Assembly (NCBI RefSeq): GCF_002563925.1
Contig: NZ_PDJD01000001.1
Location: 186,001 to 250,000, forward strand
Length of the DNA: 64,000 nucleotides
From: Serinibacter salmoneus
Lineage (GTDB): Bacteria; Actinomycetota; Actinomycetes; Actinomycetales; Beutenbergiaceae
Reading direction: 5' to 3'
Below, one piece after another: positions 34,712 through 43,627 of the stretch; the first letter of the stretch is position 1; the number at the start of each line of letters is the position of its first letter. Position numbers and translations under genes: made by a program. The notes below the pieces were generated by a model. The model was not told the origin of the DNA. It was given only the letters and a program-made list of their open reading frames with translations, and did no database searches.

Positions 34712-36010
34712 TCACGGCAGCGGGATCGGCCGCAGGATCGGGAACGGCGGCCGGATGATCAGCCACGGACGGGTCGGCGCCTTCGCCAGGCCCTTGCCCA
34801 CCAGCAGCTCCCGCTGCGGCAGCGGGGTGACCGTGGCGAGCAGCCGACTGGCCAGGGCGCGCCCCCGCAGCCCGGTGGCCTGCGCCAGGATCGCGGCGAC
34901 GCCGGAGACGTGCGGCGTGGCCATGCTGGTGCCGTTCAGGTTCGCGTAGGAGCCCTTCGTGACCGGCCATGCGGAGAAGGTCCCCACGCCGGGTGCGGCG
35001 ATGTTGACCTCGCCGCCGTCGCCGTTCAGGCCCACGCACGAGAAGCTCGCCCGCTGCAGGTTGTGGTCCAGTGCGGCCACCGCGAGGATCGAGGGGCAGT
35101 TGGCCGGTGACCCCACCGGCTGGTACCCGGCGTTCCCGGCCGCGGCGATCACGAGGCAACCGGAGTCCAGTGCTGCCCGCGCGGCGGTCTCGTAGGCGGG
35201 TGAGTAGCCCGCGCCGAGTGCCACGTTGGAGCCCAGCGACATGGAGATCACGTCCGCGTTGGAGGCGATCGCCCAGTTGATGCCGGCGAGCACGCCACCG
35301 GATGAGCCGGAGCCGTTGTCGCCGAGCACCTTCCCGATCAGGAGTCTGGCTCCCGGCGCCACGCTGTAGCGACGCTGCCCCCCGGCGGGGGAGCGGTGCG
35401 CCGCGACGGTCCCGGCGACGTGTGTGCCGTGCCCGTGCCCATCCTGGACGGCCTGCCCGGAGATGAAGCTCGCGGAGCCGACCACCTGGCCGGCGAGGTC
35501 CGGGTGCCCCAGGTCGATGCCGGTGTCCAGCACCGCCACGCACACGCCGGTGCCGCTCCACGGTGCCCGGTGCAGCAGCGGCGGGACGGCGTGCACGGCG
35601 CGCACACCCCAGGTGGAGTGGTCGGTGTCGGTGAAGGCGAGGACGTCGGGGACGTCGTCGTCCTCCGCGACGAGGAAGCCGTCCTCGCCGAGTTCGCCGT
35701 CCGCCACCGTGACCACGACCTCGGGCTCGGTGGCCAGGATCGGGGAGCGCGGGTCCTCGATCGCGGAGGTGAGGGCGCCGGAGACCGCCTCCGGCTCCTC
35801 CTGGAGGATGGCGACCCCGAGATGCTCGAGGTACACCGACCCCTCGGTGCCGGAGCCGGCCGCCTCGGCGGACATGCTCTCGGCGGTGGTGGTGTGGATG
35901 CCGAGGCTCTCCAGGGCCTCGCCCGCCTGCTCAGGCCTCGCGCGCCGGTCCATCACGACGATCGTGCGACCGGTCTGCGCCGGGAGCGCGGCGTCTGTGG
36001 TGCTGCTCAT
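34712..36010 (-). CDS. Intracellular S8 subtilisin-like protease (paralogue 1)
   Basis: This 432-aa protein has the triad Asp162 (VAVLDTGID), His194 (GHGTHVAG) and Ser362 (NGTSMATPH), with oxyanion Asn in AAAGNAG. There is no signal peptide. The first about 110 residues resemble an I9-type propeptide (TGRTIVVMDRRARPEQAGEALESLG). ATG 36010 has AGGAGG 7 nt upstream. The start is supported because the triad numbers are then identical to those of the paralogue at 42380-43627. It is the last gene of the sigma-subtilase-CHAT set and may be a target or executor of the CHAT protease. Confidence 0.9.
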   Translation of the reverse strand: MSSTTDAALPAQTGRTIVVMDRRARPEQAGEALESLGIHTTTAESMSAEAAGSGTEGSVYLEHLGVAILQEEPEAVSGALTSAIEDPRSPILATEPEVVVTVADGELGEDGFLVAEDDDVPDVLAFTDTDHSTWGVRAVHAVPPLLHRAPWSGTGVCVAVLDTGIDLGHPDLAGQVVGSASFISGQAVQDGHGHGTHVAGTVAAHRSPAGGQRRYSVAPGARLLIGKVLGDNGSGSSGGVLAGINWAIASNADVISMSLGSNVALGAGYSPAYETAARAALDSGCLVIAAAGNAGYQPVGSPANCPSILAVAALDHNLQRASFSCVGLNGDGGEVNIAAPGVGTFSAWPVTKGSYANLNGTSMATPHVSGVAAILAQATGLRGRALASRLLATVTPLPQRELLVGKGLAKAPTRPWLIIRPPFPILRPIPLP

Positions 36011-36107
36011 GATCTGCCTCCTGGTCGTGGCCGACCCCGGTGGCCGGTCACTCACACAAGAGGCGGTCCGACGGCGTGCTGATACATCCGCTCCCCGTCA
36101 CCTGCGC

Positions 36108-38522
36108 CTACCACCCGTTCCCGAAGCAGGTGAACGCGGAGACCGTCGCCGGCGTCTGGTGGGGCTGGCGGTGCGCGAGCAGACTCGCCGGGTCGTGCCC
36201 CTGCGCCAGCCCGGCGTGCAGTTCGGTCAGCAATGCCGCCTGGTCGGAGACCCGCGCGGGTGCCGCGATCACGCACCGGGCCCCCGCGTGCAGCCAGGTG
36301 CGGGCCATCCCGAGCATCTCCTGCCCCCAGGCGGCGCTGGATCGGCCCAGTTCGCACGCGGAGAGGACCACCACCTGCGGGACCCGGTCGAGCTGGTCGA
36401 TGTCGAATCCGTACCAGGTGCCGTCCACCAACTCGAAGCCGGAGAACATCGGGTTCTCCGCCGAGTGCTGCCCGTGGGCCGCCACGTGCAACACGTCCAC
36501 GCTGCGCGCCAGGTGGGCGACGGCGTCGATCCGCGCATCTGGTCCGCGCAGGATCCGGGCGCTTCCCCAGGCGGCGGCCGCGGTGGTCACCTCCGCCTCA
36601 CCGTTGCGCAGCCCGGGGCCCGCCACGAACCCGATCCGGCGGCCGGCACCGGGGCGTTCCCCGGCGCGTCGGCAGAAGTCGCGGAGCGTCTCGGCCACGC
36701 TCACCGCCACCCCGGCCAGGCCGGGCATCCGGTTCCACGGGAGTGCGCTGAGGGCGGGCGGTCCCACCACGACCAGTCGGGTGGTGGGCGGCAGGGCGAG
36801 GGGCCGCAGGAGTCGATCGCTCAACACGCGCAGCCGGGTGCGCAGGGAGGCGTGGACGACGGCGCCGATCGCCTCGGGCAGCAGGCCCGCGGCCATGTCG
36901 AGGTCGGCCAGGAGGGCGCGCACGTCCTGGATGATGGAGGGCCAGTCACCCAGCCGCACCAGGCGTGGGCGGCCCACGGCGGGGTCGAGGACCACGGACG
37001 CCACCTCCGACCCGGTCTGGACGTAGGAGATCGCCACGCTGCGGGTGGTCTGCAGCGCGGGCCACACTCGCGCCAGCAGGTCGGCAGGCGTGGGGGTGGT
37101 GGGGCGCAACGGGGGCCTCAGCGCGGCGGTGCGAGCGGCGACGCCACGGGTGATCTCCGCCCAGGAGAGCACCTCCCGGGCGTCGCCGATGCGCAGGGAC
37201 TCGCGCAGCCCGATGATGACCAGCCGCCGGGTGTGGGCGGCCAGGGACGTGCGCAGTTCCAGGTCGCGGTACTCCTCCTGCCACCGTTGCACGAGGTCCA
37301 CGCCGAGCCGGGCGCGGCGGATCGCGATCCTGCTCTGCCCACCCGCCGAGGCCACGGCGGCGCCCGCCTCCTGGTGCAGCACGCGGGCCAGGAGTCCCTC
37401 GTCCGCACGGGGGGTCAGGCGGCGTAGTTCCGCGCGCGCGGTGGTCAGGTCCCCGCGACTGGCGAGCGCCGCGACGGCGCGGCGACGCAGTTCGCGGGAG
37501 ACGTCCCACATGTGTCTGGCGCGCAGTTGCTCCCCCAGGGTGATCACCTCCCGCAGTCGCGCGGGGCCCGGACGGTGCTCCAGGTCGAGGGCCAGGGCGC
37601 GGGCGCGGGCCCGTAACGCGCCGCGCTGATCGTGGGCCGAGTCGTAGATCCGGGCGGCGCGGGCCGCCAGGCGCCGGGCCTGGGGCGCGGTCGAGGCGAC
37701 CCACGGCTGCACGATGCTGCGGGCCTGGGAGGCGGTGAGCAGCGTCTCGGCCTGCTGGCGGCGCATCCGCACGTGGCCGAATGCGCCGGCGGCGGACTCC
37801 AGCAGCGGGAGCGCGGCGCCCGGCATCCCGGAGAGCAGCAGGAGGTCCGCGCGTGCGAGGTCGCACCAGGCGGCCATCACGGGGCCGAGCGGCGCGAGCA
37901 CCACCCGCGAGGCCTCCAGCAGGGATCCGGCCCGCACGAGGTCGCCCTGCTGGTAGGCGACGATCCCCGCGTTGTGCTGCGCCTTGGCCGCGCCGACGGC
38001 GTGGTCACCGCGCCGGAAGGCCGCCTCGGCGTCCGCGAAGCAACTCCCCGCCAGGGCGAGGTCACCGCCCTCGAGCTCGATCGCGCCCCGGTTCAGCAGC
38101 ACGTTGCCCAGTTCCCGAGGTGCGTCGTCGAGTCCTGCCGCCGCGCGGTCCAGGACGGCGGCGGCGCGGGCCGGGTCGCCGTAGTGGATCAGGACGAGTC
38201 CGAGTTGACCCTCCACGATGGCGCGAGTGCGTGGCGCGAGGTCCCCTGCCAGGATGCCCTCGCACAGCGTGACGGCGGAGGCTGGATCGCCCCGTTCGGC
38301 CAGGATGTAGGCGCGCGTGCCCGCTATCAGTGCGGCGAGGTCGGCCCCCGCGTCCCTGGCCGCGCGGTCCAGGAGCGTCAGGGCCCGTAGGAGACGACCG
38401 GCGTTGGCGTGAGCGACGGCCCGGTCGTACCACTCCTCGGGCGCGACGCGACCTCGTGTGGCTCCCGCCGGTCCCGCCTCGCCCCGCTCACCGGAACCCG
38501 GCGGGGTCGTGGCCCCGCCCAT
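36108..38522 (-). CDS. TPR-CHAT caspase-like protease
   Basis: This 804-aa protein has an N-terminal half of TPR-like helical repeats (AEEWYDRAVAHANAGRLLRALTLLDRA-type units through about residue 450). The C-terminal CHAT domain has catalytic His683 (LHVAAHGQHS) and Cys723 (VVLSACELG), the caspase-superfamily dyad, and the usual GF.L.....G.D..QL link between them. GGGAGG is 5 nt upstream of the ATG. CHAT proteases cut protein partners at defined sites (separase and Craspase relatives). Here the neighbours are three subtilases, the likely partners. Activation signal unknown. Confidence 0.9.
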   Translation of the reverse strand: MGGATTPPGSGERGEAGPAGATRGRVAPEEWYDRAVAHANAGRLLRALTLLDRAARDAGADLAALIAGTRAYILAERGDPASAVTLCEGILAGDLAPRTRAIVEGQLGLVLIHYGDPARAAAVLDRAAAGLDDAPRELGNVLLNRGAIELEGGDLALAGSCFADAEAAFRRGDHAVGAAKAQHNAGIVAYQQGDLVRAGSLLEASRVVLAPLGPVMAAWCDLARADLLLLSGMPGAALPLLESAAGAFGHVRMRRQQAETLLTASQARSIVQPWVASTAPQARRLAARAARIYDSAHDQRGALRARARALALDLEHRPGPARLREVITLGEQLRARHMWDVSRELRRRAVAALASRGDLTTARAELRRLTPRADEGLLARVLHQEAGAAVASAGGQSRIAIRRARLGVDLVQRWQEEYRDLELRTSLAAHTRRLVIIGLRESLRIGDAREVLSWAEITRGVAARTAALRPPLRPTTPTPADLLARVWPALQTTRSVAISYVQTGSEVASVVLDPAVGRPRLVRLGDWPSIIQDVRALLADLDMAAGLLPEAIGAVVHASLRTRLRVLSDRLLRPLALPPTTRLVVVGPPALSALPWNRMPGLAGVAVSVAETLRDFCRRAGERPGAGRRIGFVAGPGLRNGEAEVTTAAAAWGSARILRGPDARIDAVAHLARSVDVLHVAAHGQHSAENPMFSGFELVDGTWYGFDIDQLDRVPQVVVLSACELGRSSAAWGQEMLGMARTWLHAGARCVIAAPARVSDQAALLTELHAGLAQGHDPASLLAHRQPHQTPATVSAFTCFGNGW

Positions 38523-38579
38523 GGCTGCCTCCCGTGGCCCCCGCCTGGGTCCCTAGCCTGCCACGGCGCCGGCTGAGCG

Positions 38580-40106
38580 TCACGTGGTCTCGGGCAGCGT
38601 CAGCCCCGCCCGGGCGACGGCGTCACGCGCCCGGGCAACGGCGTCGTCCCCGCTCTGCTTCCTCGGCAGGGTGCGGCCGAGTGCTACGGCCACCTCGGCG
38701 GCGACCACGGGGGCGGCGAAGGAGGTTCCGCTCCAGATCGCGAATCCTCCCTGCGGCTCGTCGGGGTTGCCGGGGTCGGGTGCGCTGTAGTCGTCCGGGT
38801 CCAGGCTCTCCCGGCGCTGCGAGGGGCCGCCGGGGAGGCTCTCGCGCGCGGCCAGGGGCTGCAGTCCGCCCCGCAGCGGCGGCGACGTGCTCACCAGCGC
38901 GGCCCCGGTGGCGTAGGTGGTGACCCAGTCCCCGGTGTTGGAGAACAGGGCGATGGTGCCGTTCGGGTTGCGAGCGCCGACCGAGAGCACCGGGGCGCCG
39001 CTGAGGCCCGCACCCGCGTAGGCGGCGGGGTAGAACGGCCGGTTGGTCGCCTCGTTGCCGGCCGAGAGCACCACCGTGACCCCGAGCCGGGTCAGGCGCT
39101 CCAGGCTCGGCCGCAGGATGTGGTCGTCGTCCGCCTCGTCGGGGTCCTCGGGGTAGAACCCGAGCGAGAGGCACAGCACGTCCAGGCCGACGCCGGTGCC
39201 GGGGTCCTCGCGGTTGGCGGCGACAAGGTCCGCCACGTTCTCCAGCGCGCTGAGCAGATCGGACTCGGGGACCACGCCGGCGCCGTCGCAGATCCGCCAG
39301 GAGTACAGGTCGGCGTGCGGGGCGCGCTGCCGCAGCATGCCCGCGATGAACGTGCCGTGGCCCGCCACCGCATCCAGTACGCCGTCCAGCGGTCCGAGCT
39401 GATCGCCGTCCTCCTCCGCGGATGACTGCGCCGCGCTCCCGGGAACCCGACGGCGCACCACATCGGCCAGCCACGGGTGCTGCCCGCAGCCGGAGTCCAG
39501 GAAGCCGATCGCGGGGCGTCGGGTCTCGGGGTCGGCGGGTTCCTCGCCCCGGTCCGGCGCTCGCAGCACGACGGCGACGGGGCTGCGTCCACCTGCACCC
39601 GGCAGCTGGTAGCTGCTCGCCGGGGAGACACCGTTGGTGCCGTACATCCCCTTGCCGTTGGTTCCGTACATCCCGATCCCGTTGGTCCCGTACATCCCGA
39701 TGCCGTTGGTGCCGTACATCCCGGGCCCCTGCGGGTGGAAGGCGGCGAGGAACACCGCATGGTCCAGCCCGGCGGCCAGGTGCGGTTCCCGGGCGCGGGC
39801 GGCCTCGAGCAGTCCGCTGGCGTCGGGCTCGGCCGCGCCCGGCTGCCGGGTGATACGCAGTCGCGTCACGGTGTCGGCGCCCGCGCTGCGCAGCACCCGC
39901 ACGGCGTCCTCGGCGGTGTCGGTCTCGGGGGCCACGATCCACCCGCGCTCCGCCGCGACCTCACGCAGCAGCGCGATCGAGCGCGCGGTGTCCTTGCCGG
40001 TGACCAGCAGGTGATCGGCGAGATGGATCGTGCCCGCGCCGGTGCCCTTCGGGTCGGCCGCGCGCCAGGGGCGGGTGGCTGCGGGTGTGCGATCGGGGTG
40101 GGACAT
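38580..40106 (-). CDS. S8 subtilase with GMYGTNG repeats
   Basis: This 508-aa protein, distinct from the two paralogues, has no signal peptide. Residues 1-125 form an unknown N-terminal domain. Residues 129-160 are four perfect 8-aa repeats (GMYGTNG plus I, I, K, V; DNA 39627-39722). The peptidase domain has Asp204 (GFLDSG), His250 (GHGTF), Asn351 and Ser462 (GTSFAAP). The repeat sits just where a propeptide meets the protease, so it could be a flexible activation loop. AGGAG precedes the ATG. It lies between the regulatory-domain gene and the CHAT gene. Confidence 0.9.
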   Translation of the reverse strand: MSHPDRTPAATRPWRAADPKGTGAGTIHLADHLLVTGKDTARSIALLREVAAERGWIVAPETDTAEDAVRVLRSAGADTVTRLRITRQPGAAEPDASGLLEAARAREPHLAAGLDHAVFLAAFHPQGPGMYGTNGIGMYGTNGIGMYGTNGKGMYGTNGVSPASSYQLPGAGGRSPVAVVLRAPDRGEEPADPETRRPAIGFLDSGCGQHPWLADVVRRRVPGSAAQSSAEEDGDQLGPLDGVLDAVAGHGTFIAGMLRQRAPHADLYSWRICDGAGVVPESDLLSALENVADLVAANREDPGTGVGLDVLCLSLGFYPEDPDEADDDHILRPSLERLTRLGVTVVLSAGNEATNRPFYPAAYAGAGLSGAPVLSVGARNPNGTIALFSNTGDWVTTYATGAALVSTSPPLRGGLQPLAARESLPGGPSQRRESLDPDDYSAPDPGNPDEPQGGFAIWSGTSFAAPVVAAEVAVALGRTLPRKQSGDDAVARARDAVARAGLTLPETT

Positions 40107-40181
40107 CCTCGACTCCTGCCGGGTGAGTGGACTGGCGTGCGGTCGGTCGGTCTGGCGTGCGGTCGGTGTCTACCTGAGCGC

Positions 40182-40730
40182 CTACCGCCCAGGGGGTACG
40201 GGATCGGGCGTGACTTGGAAGCCCGGGGTGCGGTGACGGGTGTGCAGGGATGGCCCGAGGACCAGGTCGAACAGGAGCGAGGCCATGCCCGCGGGGACGT
40301 TGTCGAGAACGAAGCGTCCGCCGTCGTCCACCTGTGCCGTGCCGGCGCCGGTGCCGTGCAACTCGACGGATCCGGGCGTGGGCGGGGCGACCCAGCCGTC
40401 TATCCGCCCGGGGGACAGGCGAAGGAGGATCTGGCGCTCGCGTCCGGCGAACTCCAGCACGAGCGGCTCCACCGCCCCGGCGTGGGTGCCGGCCCGCACG
40501 CCCAGCGCGAGCGCGTCGTGGCGGGCGACCAGCTCGAGGAGTTCGATGTCCAGCTCGTCCACGTCGGCGACCTCGGCCACGCCGTCGGCGGGCTCCGCTG
40601 CGTCGTCGGCCTCAGCCGCGCGCGCCGCGTCCACTGCCTCGGTGAGATCCCGGGCCAGGCCGGCGGGCGGCGGGTCCAGTCGCTGCCACAACGCGGCGAT
40701 CTCGTGGAGCAGCGGGTCGTTGACGGTCAT
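40182..40730 (-). CDS. Small protein with carboxypeptidase-regulatory-like beta domain
   Basis: This 182-aa protein has an acidic helical N-terminal half (EAVDAARAAEADDAAEPADG) and a C-terminal beta-sandwich (ERQILLRLSPGRIDGWVAP, then GGRFVLDNVPAGMASLLFDL) of the CarboxypepD-regulatory type. It starts 9 bp after the sigma-factor stop with a clear AGGAG, so it is co-translated. Position suggests an anti-sigma-like or adaptor role; no zinc-binding anti-sigma motif is present, so that remains a guess. Confidence 0.65.
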   Translation of the reverse strand: MTVNDPLLHEIAALWQRLDPPPAGLARDLTEAVDAARAAEADDAAEPADGVAEVADVDELDIELLELVARHDALALGVRAGTHAGAVEPLVLEFAGRERQILLRLSPGRIDGWVAPPTPGSVELHGTGAGTAQVDDGGRFVLDNVPAGMASLLFDLVLGPSLHTRHRTPGFQVTPDPVPPGR

Positions 40731-40738
40731 CGGGGCTC

Positions 40739-41395
40739 CTAGCGGGACGGGGCCGAAGGCGGCGTGGTGGGCGGGAGGGTCGTGGGGCGCGAGGTCATCG
40801 CGGTGCGGAGCTTGCCGAGGCAGCGTCCACGCGTGGGGCCGATCGAGCCGACCGGCATCTTGAGGTCGGCGGCGAGCTCGGCATAGTTCGGGCGGTCGCT
40901 GAACGCGATCACTCGCAGCAGCCTGCGGCAGCGTTCGGGGAGGGCGGCGAGTGCGCGCCAGAGCCGCCGGGACTCCGAACGCTCGAGCGCCTCCTCCTCC
41001 GCGGCGCGGTGGTGGGGAAGGTAGTGATCGAGCTCGACCTCCGGGTTCACCGGCGCGCGCCGCTGCTCCAGCCTGCGGGCGGCGGTGCGCAGGCGCCAGG
41101 CCTCGCGGCGGGTGGCGGTGATCAGCCACGCGCCGATCGCCTGGGGGTCGGCGATGGCCTCGCGGGAGCGGACCAGCGCGAGCCAGACGTTCTGCAGGCC
41201 ATCGCGCGCCTGCTCCTCGTCGAGGTCGTACGCGCGAGCCACCTGCCACAGCACCGGGGTCATCACCTCGACCAGCGCCGAGGCCGATGTCTCCTCATCA
41301 CGCCACGCCACGAACGCGTCGGCCGCACGTTGCCACGGATCGGCCGACTCACTCGCCTGCGAGCGTGGTGTCTCCACCTTCGACATTGTTGCCAT
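40739..41395 (-). CDS. ECF-type sigma-70 family RNA polymerase sigma factor
   Basis: This 218-aa protein has region 2 (ARAYDLDEEQARDGLQNVWLALVRSREAIADPQAIGAWLITATRREAWRL in pieces) and region 4 (LPERCRRLLRVIAFSDRPNYAELAADLKMPVGSIGPTRGRCLGKLR), with the HTH beginning YAELAADLKM. ATG 41395 or 41386 may be used; neither has a good ribosome-binding site. It is first of the leftward set sigma, regulatory-domain protein, subtilase, CHAT, subtilase, so it probably drives that operon. Confidence 0.9.
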   Translation of the reverse strand: MATMSKVETPRSQASESADPWQRAADAFVAWRDEETSASALVEVMTPVLWQVARAYDLDEEQARDGLQNVWLALVRSREAIADPQAIGAWLITATRREAWRLRTAARRLEQRRAPVNPEVELDHYLPHHRAAEEEALERSESRRLWRALAALPERCRRLLRVIAFSDRPNYAELAADLKMPVGSIGPTRGRCLGKLRTAMTSRPTTLPPTTPPSAPSR

Positions 41396-41460
41396 ACGAC
41401 TCAGGAGGCGCCAGGGGCATGCCTGATACATGCGCGTGGCTGCAGATGCCGAGCGGGCGG

Positions 41461-41555
41461 TGGGACTCGCCCAGTGTGTGGTTGGGCGGGGGTGGGACTC
41501 GCCCAGTGTGTGGTTGTGCGGGGGTGGGACTCGCCCAGTGTGTGGTTGGGCGGGG
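41461..41555. repeat. Three tandem 32-bp repeats upstream of the sigma gene
   Basis: The unit starts tgggactcgcccagtgtgtg at 41461, 41493 and 41525 with exact 32-bp spacing and almost no variation. It fills the space 66-160 bp upstream of the sigma start. Otherwise 41396-41719 holds no gene I can support. Confidence 0.88.
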
Positions 41556-41719
41556 TTCTCGTGCCCGCACGCTGCGCAGGAACCCGCTCGGCGGGGGTGG
41601 GTGGTGGGCGGTCTGCGGAGGCGCCCGCTCCACGCGGCGAGGCGTGCGCGCGGGCACCCCACATCACGCGCTAGGATGGTCGTCGTTGCCGTGAAGGGTG
41701 GTCCCCGTCCCGGCACGTC

Positions 41720-41790
41720 GCGGGTGTAGTTCAATGGTAGAACTTCAGCTTCCCAAGCTGACAGCGCGGGTTCGATTCCCGTCACCCGCT
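41720..41790 (+). tRNA. tRNA-Gly (anticodon CCC)
   Basis: The 71-nt cloverleaf has acceptor GCGGGTG/CACCCGC, D-arm GTTC/GAAC, anticodon stem TCAGC/GCTGA with loop TTCCCAA (anticodon CCC), and T-arm around GGTTCGATTCC. The CCA end is not encoded. It lies on the strand opposite the protease genes. Confidence 0.95.
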
Positions 41791-41797
41791 CCGCAGG

Positions 41798-41822
41798 ACG
41801 CCGAGGCCCGTGGCCTCGGCGT
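41798..41822 (+). terminator. tRNA terminator hairpin
   Basis: A perfect 11-bp stem ACGCCGAGGCC/GGCCTCGGCGT with a 3-nt loop, 8 nt after the tRNA. Confidence 0.8.
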
Positions 41823-41911
41823 TCGCCGTTTCGCCGCCCGGGCCATCGCATCGTCCGGGCCCGAGTGCCCAGCCGGCCGCATCACCCATTGCGCCAGTGC
41901 GTGGATCGCGC

Positions 41912-42205
41912 TCACCGCGGGGGCTCGGGCACCTCTCCCGGCGGGATGGACACCTCGGTGTCGTCCTCGACCGCGACCCCCGGCAGGCTCATCAGCGCCT
42001 CGCGGTGGTCCTCGTCAACCACACCCACCACCATGTGGATCGCCGTGAGGGTCCGCTCCACGTGCAGGCCGGCACCCTCCAGGGTGGGCAGTGCCTTCTC
42101 GACGTCCTCGGTCACGGTGACGATGACGCGACGGGCGTTCCTTCCCACGGCACGCCCCGTGGCCCCGTGCCCGGAGCCGCTCTGCTCCTTCGACCCCTCG
42201 CTCAT
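41912..42205 (-). CDS. Stand-alone I9-like propeptide / peptidase inhibitor
   Basis: This 97-aa protein has the fold pattern RVIVTVTEDVEKALPTLEGAGLHVERTLTAIHMVVGVVDEDHREALMSLPGVAVEDD, matching subtilisin propeptides (strand-helix-strand, ending before a D/E-rich strand). Similar small actinobacterial proteins are often mislabelled ketohydroxyglutarate aldolase. TACCCT six bases upstream of the ATG suggests a leaderless transcript. It follows the third subtilase by 174 bp and may chaperone or inhibit it in trans. Confidence 0.65.
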   Translation of the reverse strand: MSEGSKEQSGSGHGATGRAVGRNARRVIVTVTEDVEKALPTLEGAGLHVERTLTAIHMVVGVVDEDHREALMSLPGVAVEDDTEVSIPPGEVPEPPR

Positions 42206-42379
42206 GCCGGAAGGGTACTCCCGGCACGAACGCGCCGGGAGGGGCCGGGCGATACTGGCCAGAACGGCGTCAGCAGGGTGCGCGACGGCTCCGGTGCCGC
42301 GGGGGTATGCCGCGGGCGGATACCGCGCCAGGGCAGTTCCCCACGGGGAGCGCGGCCCAGCAGGCGGGCTGCGGTCCCC

Positions 42380-43627
42380 TCAGGCGGAGGTCGGCACCTG
42401 CGCGAGACCCCGGCCCACGAGTTGGGCCTCCTCGGTCAGCGGAAGCACACCGGCCAGTAGCGCATCCCAGAGTTCCTGCCCCCGAAGTCCTGTGGCCTGA
42501 GCGAGGAGCGCAGCGAGGCCCGCGACGTGCGGAGTTGCCATCGACGTGCCGCTGAGTACGGCGTAGGAACCGAGCGAGACGGGCACGCTGGAGTACACCG
42601 CCACGCCGGGACCAGCGAGGTTCACCTCGCCGCCGTCCCCGTTCAGGCCCACGCAGGAGAACTCCGCCCGCAGCAGGCTGTGGCCGACCGCGGCCACGGC
42701 CAGTGCGGAGGGACAGTTCGCGGGTGAGTTCACCGGCGCCCACCCGGCGTTCCCGGCGGCGGCCACCACCATCGACCCGGCCGCCAGGGCGGCGCTCGCC
42801 GCCGCCTCGTAGTACCGCAGGTAACTCTGCCCGATCGCGACGTCGCTGCCGAGCGACATGGAGATCACATGGGCGCCCTGCTCGATCGCCCAGTTCATCC
42901 CCTCCAGCACCCCGCCCGAGGTGCCGGAGCCGTTGTCGCCCAGCACCTTGCCGATGATGAGGGCGGCGTCGGGGGCCACGCCGTACCGCCGACCGCCCCC
43001 GGCGGGCACGTCCGGGCCCGCGACCGTGCCGGCGCAGTGCGTGCCGTGGCCGTTGCCGTCCTGCACGCCCTCGCCGTCGATGAAGGACTCCGTCACCATC
43101 GCGCGCCCCGTGAAGTCCGGGTGGCCGGTGTCGATCCCGGTGTCCAGCACGGCCACGCGGATACCGGCCCCGGAATAGGCCCCGCCGCGCGTGAGGATCC
43201 CTGAGGCCTGCAGGCCCCAGGTGAGTGCGGCCGTGTCGGAGAACGGCGGGCCGGGCGGGTCGTCCGGCCCGGGCGGGTCCGCGGGATCGGACGGGTCGGA
43301 CGGATCCGGCGGGGTGCTGAGCGTGTGGACCCACACCTCCGGTTCCGCGGCACGGACCGCCATCTCCGGGTCCTCCACGGCCTCCGCCATGAAGGCGGGG
43401 GCCTCGGGCAGGATCGCGATGCCGAGGGAGTCCAGCAGCACCGCGTCCCCGGGGGAGGCCGGGGTGAGCCCCCCGATCCCGGTGCCCCGCATCCCGCTGG
43501 GGCGTACCGTGCGCAACCCCAGCCTGCCCACCGTGCTCTCGCAGGCCTCGCGTGCGCCGTCGAGCACCACGATGGTGCGCCCGGTGTACTGCGAGCTGGA
43601 CGGGGTGGAGCTCTCCGGTGTGCTCAT
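42380..43627 (-). CDS. Intracellular S8 subtilisin-like protease (paralogue 2)
   Basis: This 415-aa protein has the triad Asp162 (VAVLDTGID), His194 (NGHGTHCAG) and Ser362 (SGTSMATPH), and the same NAGWAPVNSPANCPSALAVAAV and SCVGLNGDGGEVN blocks as 34712-36010. Like that gene it has no signal peptide and begins with a propeptide-like TGRTIVVLDGAREACESTVGRLG, then a Pro/Asp linker (DPSDPSDPADPPGPDDPP). It lies beyond the tRNA on the same strand as the sigma-CHAT set. Confidence 0.9.
   Translation of the reverse strand: MSTPESSTPSSSQYTGRTIVVLDGAREACESTVGRLGLRTVRPSGMRGTGIGGLTPASPGDAVLLDSLGIAILPEAPAFMAEAVEDPEMAVRAAEPEVWVHTLSTPPDPSDPSDPADPPGPDDPPGPPFSDTAALTWGLQASGILTRGGAYSGAGIRVAVLDTGIDTGHPDFTGRAMVTESFIDGEGVQDGNGHGTHCAGTVAGPDVPAGGGRRYGVAPDAALIIGKVLGDNGSGTSGGVLEGMNWAIEQGAHVISMSLGSDVAIGQSYLRYYEAAASAALAAGSMVVAAAGNAGWAPVNSPANCPSALAVAAVGHSLLRAEFSCVGLNGDGGEVNLAGPGVAVYSSVPVSLGSYAVLSGTSMATPHVAGLAALLAQATGLRGQELWDALLAGVLPLTEEAQLVGRGLAQVPTSA

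Follow-up and report, generated by a model that had tools for sequence, protein, structure and literature searches.

The 64,000-nucleotide stretch analyzed here (the window; positions 186,001 to 250,000 of contig NZ_PDJD01000001.1 of Serinibacter salmoneus, whose genome is a single contig of 3.27 Mb) carries, all on the minus strand from position 43627 down to 34712, genes for a subtilase (S8c), an I9-like protein, an extracytoplasmic function (ECF)-type sigma factor, a small protein, a second subtilase (S8a), a TPR-CHAT protease, and a third subtilase (S8b). Four of them, encoding the sigma factor, the small beta-domain protein, S8a, and the TPR-CHAT protease, are a conserved operon. The linker of S8a contains a tandem peptide array whose unit, as judged from sequence divergence among relatives, seems to change together with residues 1 to 220 of the TPR region of the CHAT protease. 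The features of the core, in window positions, are as follows.

41405 to 41430, minus strand: promoter-like motif TGTATCA-N16-CTC before the operon
about 40739 to 41395, minus strand: ECF-type sigma factor, 218 residues (215 if the start is at 41386)
40182 to 40730, minus strand: small protein with an N-terminal helical motif and a C-terminal beta domain (CarboxypepD_reg-like in relatives)
38580 to 40106, minus strand: S8a subtilase, 508 residues, with a prodomain at about 32 to 119, then the array, and the catalytic domain from Asp204
39627 to 39722, minus strand: tandem array of S8a, residues 129 to 160, four 8-residue copies (GMYGTNGI, GMYGTNGI, GMYGTNGK, GMYGTNGV)
36108 to 38522, minus strand: TPR-CHAT protease, 804 residues, with TPR helices at about 28 to 462, the CHAT domain at about 479 to 804, and His683/Cys723
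37863 to 38522, minus strand: residues 1 to 220 of the CHAT protease, the N-terminal TPR stretch that diverges with array change

An initial annotation of this DNA, made from the letters and open reading frames (ORFs), had already recognized an ECF-type sigma factor, three leaderless S8 proteases, and a CHAT protease with a His683/Cys723 dyad. Pfam searches agree, with Peptidase_S8 in S8a, S8b, and S8c, CHAT in the 804-residue protein (E-value of 6.4e-23), and sigma-70 region 2 in the sigma factor, which also matches the NCBIfam model sigma70-ECF TIGR02937 (54.2 bits; cut-off, 42.9). His683 and Cys723 of the CHAT protease are kept in 115/115 aligned relatives, as are Asp204, His250, Asn351, and Ser462 of S8a; for S8b and S8c, whose triads had likewise been called intact, the motifs are visible in their own sequences only. 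The leaderless status of the proteases was judged by eye from their N termini. The regulatory beta domain ascribed to the small protein is supported by CarboxypepD_reg matches in 8 of 12 aligned members (best E-value, 1.4e-4) but not by a Pfam match of the protein at 40182 to 40730 itself. The extent given for the sigma factor had to be shortened: the listed ORF (40739 to 41851) crosses a tRNA-Gly gene in antisense, and the gene itself covers about 40739 to 41395.

Relatives of the operon were collected with an S8a profile (alignment A1) in four overlapping genome samples. It matched 25 of 296 genomes in the class sample at an E-value of 1e-50, with 15 of those genomes reaching 1e-117 or lower; the counts were 58 of 396 for the order sample (1e-70), 8 of 396 for the phylum sample (1e-60), and 80 of 149 for genus g36. 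The set of loci comprised 73 neighborhoods from the samples, the 60 better-scoring of the 80 from genus g36, 11 named contigs, and the window, from which two duplicates were removed (L035/L116 and L038/L114). Lack of conserved co-occurrence had been set beforehand as the observation that would speak against a functional unit; all four core genes are present in 138 of the 143 nonduplicate loci, spanning many families, and two of the five remaining loci are short contigs. Since the loci were picked via S8a, this count describes the partners of S8a and not those of CHAT. The core genes lie on one strand, mostly in the order sigma-small protein-S8a-CHAT (order A, n = 95) or S8a-sigma-small protein-CHAT (order B, n = 42; duplicates included). 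In L166 and L167, two S8a-CHAT pairs stand in tandem with one sigma gene near, and the second-kind S8a genes both have PFTSGG arrays.

This gene set is a known one, and the initial annotation spotted it rightly. According to the passages on group ECF54 in a review (PMC8999054), members of that group, most of them actinobacterial, have genes for a carboxypeptidase, a subtilase, and a CHAT protein as neighbors. The sigma factor studied here probably belongs to the group. The likeness extends to the carboxypeptidase(-regulatory) gene, with the difference that the "carboxypeptidase" corresponds here to the CarboxypepD_reg-like domain seen in relatives and not to an enzyme. Those passages contain no array, co-divergence, promoter motif, or RNA of the kind described below (two primary papers cited there lay outside the scope of the search), and a literature search that included the accessible parts of PMC8999054, PMC8103513, and PMC7159879 did not find these features described. 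CHAT is not mentioned in the text searched of PMC7159879 (Kaur et al.), and the phrase MYGTNG retrieved no paper.

The array, which the initial annotation had overlooked, occupies the S8a linker between the prodomain and the catalytic domain and consists of 2 to 11 tandem copies of one peptide of 5 to 11 residues. Automatic detection found it in 123 of 143 loci, with no detection in 123 catalytic-domain windows or in 125 shuffled linkers. The unit has 6 residues in 103 of the 123 arrays, the median copy number is 4.5, and the distance from the array end to the catalytic Asp is 3 to 51 residues (median, 43). Among the 20 loci missed, L152, L161, L166, and L167 have arrays recognizable by eye and L151 is cut by the contig end; in the remaining ones, the array is degenerate or absent.

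The full copies are all identical as peptides in 109/123 arrays. Over all arrays, 1,095 of 1,165 copy pairs are identical as peptides and only 98 of 1,165 as DNA, with a pooled pS of 0.491 and a pN of 0.0123. Peptide identity despite synonymous change points to selection for identical copies, which by this measure keeps every copy at the same peptide sequence as its codons drift. We rejected recent slippage as the source of the arrays because the copies differ at synonymous sites. Such strong selection for identity between neighboring peptides, with nearly free synonymous drift, is unusual. The window array is less perfect (last residues I, I, K, and V), and the YGTNG code occurs in this genome in the four array copies only. 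Across 118 loci there are 62 different units, two of which account for 29 loci; the window has GMYGTNGI, and FYGTNP, PFTSH, GYGDGV, PYWDPV, PFTRGA, GGYWGGV, and others are found elsewhere. Units can switch fast: L147 has five copies of PFIATN and L148 five of PLIETN despite S8a catalytic domains that are 98% identical.

Which protein might read such an array? In the model of the CHAT protease (11-row alignment; mean predicted local distance difference test [pLDDT] score, 82.9), a TPR superhelix extends to about residue 462 and is followed by the CHAT domain. A Foldseek search with this model returned human separase first and the TPR-CHAT protein Csx29/Craspase next, with low TM-scores of 0.26 to 0.46 by query length among the first 24 matches. 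Separase, the best match, is a very distant eukaryotic protease with cohesin as its substrate. The TPR part matches ligand-bound LGN (FRMPD1; TMt 0.80, 3.2 Å), and the solved TPR matches include one RRNPP-type phosphatase. In the model of S8a, the prodomain spans residues 32 to 119, and residues 121 to 180, with the array, are disordered (pLDDT below 50). Among solved S8 structures, those closest to the S8a profile are intracellular subtilisins, which share with S8a the leaderless S8 domain and N-terminal prodomain but differ from it in having no linker array or operon partners.

In RRNPP systems, short peptides are the ligands of TPR receptors, and multicopy peptide precursors show identical copies with free synonymous change, as the arrays do. 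The array could on these grounds be a multicopy peptide signal from which peptides of 5 to 11 residues are released and sensed by TPR receptors in the manner of RRNPP signaling, to which the TPR superhelix of the CHAT model is a likeness. We consider this very unlikely: among the four genes we saw by eye no exporter and no signal peptide, the array is buried within the gene of a leaderless protease instead of forming an exported short precursor, and the peptide code has no second occurrence in the genome.

The association of the array with the TPR region was measured in 50 disjoint close pairs of loci, 20 of them with different units, as the partial correlation (r) between excess regional divergence and unit distance; ten regions were tested, the p-values are uncorrected, and relatedness is only partly removed. 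The partial r was 0.59 for TPR residues 1 to 110 (0.53 without the discovery pair; permutation p = 0.0002) and 0.51 for residues 111 to 220 (0.43 without it; p = 0.0018). Residues 321 to 480 gave 0.30 (p = 0.017), and there was no significant association for TPR 221 to 320 (0.10), the CHAT domain (−0.11), the sigma factor (−0.19), the small protein (0.01), or the prodomain (0.21, p = 0.08). With another baseline and a rank test, TPR 1 to 320 had a p of 0.002 and no other region fell below 0.05, the middle region reaching 0.03 by Spearman correlation. In the discovery pair, L147 and L148, the sigma factors are identical (198/198 residues) and the second divergent stretch, after the array, is CHAT 1 to 200; the distance between the two CHAT proteases is 0.230 in TPR 1 to 320 and 0.007 and 0.032 in the rest of the protein. 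Along this pair, dS peaks at the array (0.34 to 0.41) and at CHAT 1 to 200 (0.48 to 0.96), with 0 to 0.14 in between. In order B, the sigma and small-protein genes lie between the array and the TPR region, and the TPR correlation is 0.69 to 0.70 with −0.09 to 0.09 for the CHAT domain. These values come from 17 or 28 overlapping pairs and carry no p-value; a TPR signal across two intervening genes argues against simple linkage, with the reservation that the pairs are few.

On this basis, we tentatively propose that the TPR-CHAT protease recognizes the S8a array and activates S8a by cutting, a reading to which we give somewhat less than an even chance. The core would be a self-contained regulatory module in which TGTATCA-N16-CTC promoters let the sigma factor drive its own operon. 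S8a would be made as a leaderless zymogen composed of prodomain, tandem array, and subtilisin domain, and the N-terminal TPR superhelix of the CHAT protease would bind the array peptide; such recognition would make array and TPR change together. Upon some trigger, the caspase-like CHAT domain, as the presumed cutter, would cleave S8a in or near the array, freeing the protease from its prodomain and turning S8a on, and with identical copies there would be more than one equivalent place to dock or cut. Possible targets of S8a, once active, are the sigma factor, the small protein, and other proteins of the cell. S8b and a trypsin-like protease encoded elsewhere in the genome are candidate further members of the regulon.

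Several results weigh against this proposal. The S8a catalytic domain correlates with array distance as strongly as the TPR region does (r of 0.58); S8a itself could thus be the reader of the array, or the array could be hitchhiking. Overlapping close pairs show a wider association, with 0.36 to 0.47 for the CHAT domain and 0.33 to 0.57 for the prodomain in order A and 0.55 to 0.60 for the prodomain in order B; over all pairs, non-TPR windows of CHAT reach 0.34 and the small protein 0.25. The divergent tracts of L147/L148 resemble recombination imports. Columns that covary show no enrichment in the A helices that line the groove of the TPR region (p = 0.52), and opposite charge between array and partner is found in 7 of 8 contrasts for TPR 1 to 220 and also in 6 of 8 for the CHAT domain. 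Finally, the S8a model is poor overall (pLDDT, 58.7).

The co-divergence of the S8a catalytic domain, which in overlapping pairs of order A rises to 0.69 to 0.76, is what would be seen if the array were the zymogen's own pseudo-substrate, lying in the active-site cleft or cut by S8a itself, with CHAT acting elsewhere. Subtilisins favor aromatic residues at P4, and 57 of the 62 units contain F, Y, or W. We nevertheless regard this explanation as unlikely, since the arrays of L147 and L148 were replaced next to nearly unchanged catalytic domains, the value for the catalytic domain in order B is only 0.26 to 0.32, and with the other baseline (0.18) the link is not significant.

Were the TPR region of CHAT to read the array, the two bacterial proteases would be matched like lock and key, in a form that is genetically encoded and particular to each lineage, with many natural pairs available for testing and engineering. 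Going one step further, and more doubtfully, the array may serve as a barcode: an arbitrary unit, perfect within a protein, rewritten between lineages, and read by its own TPR partner. The matched pair would keep a cytoplasmic relay for death or stress apart from the versions of relatives and could be exchanged as one specificity element. The sigma factor would bring further proteases into the same response and, in some lineages, a G-rich RNA with a defined structure.

The other line of evidence concerns transcription. Of 139 operons, 122 have the motif [A/C/G/T]GTATCA in the 400 bp preceding their first gene (96/98 in order A and 26/41 in order B), the expectation being 0.031 per 400 bp, and CTC follows 15 to 17 bases downstream in most listed sites. 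This is presumably an ECF promoter, as its look implies, and its position before the operon suggests autoregulation by the operon's own sigma factor. Being conserved, the motif makes the regulon predictable.

The operon's own sigma motif, together with the position of the small gene after the sigma gene in both main gene orders, also fits a scheme in which the substrate degraded by the proteases is either the sigma factor itself or the small protein, in the role of a soluble anti-sigma factor, and the array is a minor specificity element. Proteolytic control has been proposed for ECF54 (the ECF54 passages of PMC8999054), and the parts consulted of PMC10028731 describe a precedent in which the TPR-CHAT protease Csx29 cuts Csx30, an inhibitor of the ECF-type CASP-sigma. 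We find this scheme doubtful as the main function of the operon, as neither the small protein nor the sigma factor co-diverges with the array or TPR region, and the small protein has no anti-sigma match, its best match among solved structures being a beta domain (E-value of 0.0086). The type III-E Craspase system resembles the core in its TPR-CHAT fold and His/Cys dyad, encoded with an ECF-type sigma factor (same parts of PMC10028731). It differs in that no Cas7-11 gene adjoins the operon in the window, where the neighbors encode GH94 and CNNM/CBS proteins, and in that a subtilase zymogen with an array is present here instead. CalpL-CalpT-CalpS likewise joins a protease, a sigma factor inhibitor, and an ECF sigma factor in one system, but its protease is a Lon-type enzyme with SAVED that is activated by cyclic oligoadenylate (PMC11417357, in the part consulted). 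If array reading by TPR-CHAT is true, the operon represents a TPR-CHAT protease beside an ECF-type sigma factor outside CRISPR and offers a testable mechanism for group ECF54, whose description has so far come from its gene neighborhoods.

The initial annotation had also suggested stress or phage induction and a role in immunity or cell death, for which we obtained no support. PADLOC 2023 gave nothing for S8a, the sigma factor, or the small protein and only an E-value of 0.021 for CHAT, with S8b and S8c matching its general "subtilase" model; viral contigs gave only distant S8 matches (23 to 36% identity, 6 loci), and no plasmid match covered 80% of S8a. Absence from these collections is compatible with defence. 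A specific variant is that the array is a tripwire: it would imitate the site at which the protease of an invader cleaves, and the invader would thereby switch S8a on. The fast, lineage-specific turnover of the units and the patchy occurrence within a genus (80/149 genomes; 4/8) would fit, but the partner that changes with the array sits in the same operon, S8a has no match in the defence library, and ribosomal-protein neighbors recur in one set of loci, unlike in a mobile island. We judge this variant exceedingly improbable.

Beyond the core, the stretch contains the following features, to which one protease gene elsewhere in the genome is added.

42380 to 43627, minus strand: S8c subtilase, accessory, 55% identical to S8b; no sigma motif nearby in the window scan
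41912 to 42205, minus strand: I9-like small protein (P0005), accessory and outside the operon, likeness by eye
41720 to 41792, plus strand: tRNA-Gly (ccc), between the operon and the I9-like and S8c genes
41459 to 41548, minus strand: 26-bp direct repeat in three copies spaced 32 bp apart, ahead of the sigma promoter motif
36060 to 36086, minus strand: second promoter-like motif, TGTATCA-N17-CTC, between the CHAT stop and S8b
34712 to 36010, minus strand: S8b subtilase, accessory, 432 residues from a start downstream of the motif
G000:C1:1717127-1718140 (L269:420-1433), minus strand: trypsin-like protease P0008, no obvious signal peptide

The nine kilobases had been taken for a single cassette. 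We rejected this because the tRNA gene intervenes and S8c and the I9-like gene lie outside the core; only S8a of the three subtilases is part of it. Of the proposed proteolytic cascade, a relay between CHAT and S8a gains indirect support from the co-divergence of array and TPR region. Among the loci scanned, the window and L115 are the only ones with S8b-like and I9-like genes next to the operon. S8a and S8c have no significant BLAST match to each other. The propeptide likeness of P0005 is visible by eye and finds no match in Pfam or NCBIfam. For S8b, a start at 36010 is likelier than one at 36055. The direct repeats occur nowhere else in the genome, and none like them were seen in the upstream regions of 15 other loci. 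In L115 (G008), the CHAT and S8b matches are each split across two reading frames, which would reflect a frameshift, sequencing error, or decay. The operon adjoins a ribosomal protein L7/L12 gene (by eye) in L111, L158 to L160, and relatives, a cluster of 12 loci.

The two sigma-motif copies of the window had also escaped the initial annotation. The pattern [ACGT]GTATCA[GC]-N14-16-CTC has exactly two matches in the 64 kb (41430 to 41405 and 36086 to 36060, minus strand), the second 25 bp past the CHAT stop and ahead of S8b. A second exact TGTATCA-N16-CTC in the genome lies 67 bp before the gene of P0008, which is followed by a CarboxypepD_reg gene; P0008 has no homologs in the fetched loci (0 phmmer matches), so this link is not conserved there. 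With one mismatch allowed, the genome has 45 sites versus 56 for the reversed control, and therefore only the operon-linked sites are firm. A looser exact motif gives 12 versus 4; three of those 12 sites are copies of a single repeated sequence, and several fall within genes. In 60 other genomes, the exact motif has 95 sites versus 53 in the control, and 10 of the 60 have no exact match. A large regulon deduced from the motif alone was not supported. In L134, L136, L137, L139, and L130, the region upstream of S8a has a divergent sigma motif followed by the gene of a protein of about 310 residues and unassigned kind.

In genus g36, the motif stands directly after CHAT in 61 of 72 loci, and what follows is a predicted structured RNA. 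The next 170 nucleotides contain CTGGGG 1.43 times on average and at least once in 55 of 61 loci, with none of the reverse complement and a background of 0.052 (all loci). In a fold derived from 14 aligned rows and tested on the same rows, 13 pairs are changed on both sides, versus 5.3 in shuffles (0/500) and at most 5 in slid controls. A search of five loci gave no Rfam family match. The RNA model (R1) finds E-values below 1e-10 in 12 of 85 sources, two of which are training rows, and a weaker match in L257 (1.4e-4); it has no match in the window, where the motif leads to S8b. To judge from these searches, the predicted structured RNA is confined to one subclade. At L206:6656-6830 and comparable sites of genus g36, the sigma motif is followed by CTGGGG motifs and a strong hairpin at the terminus. 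Clustered reading frames after CHAT in this genus look by eye like antisense frames. Elsewhere (L100/L101, L108/L133, and five divergent order B loci) an ORF is present after the second motif, and the RNA is therefore not the sole target.

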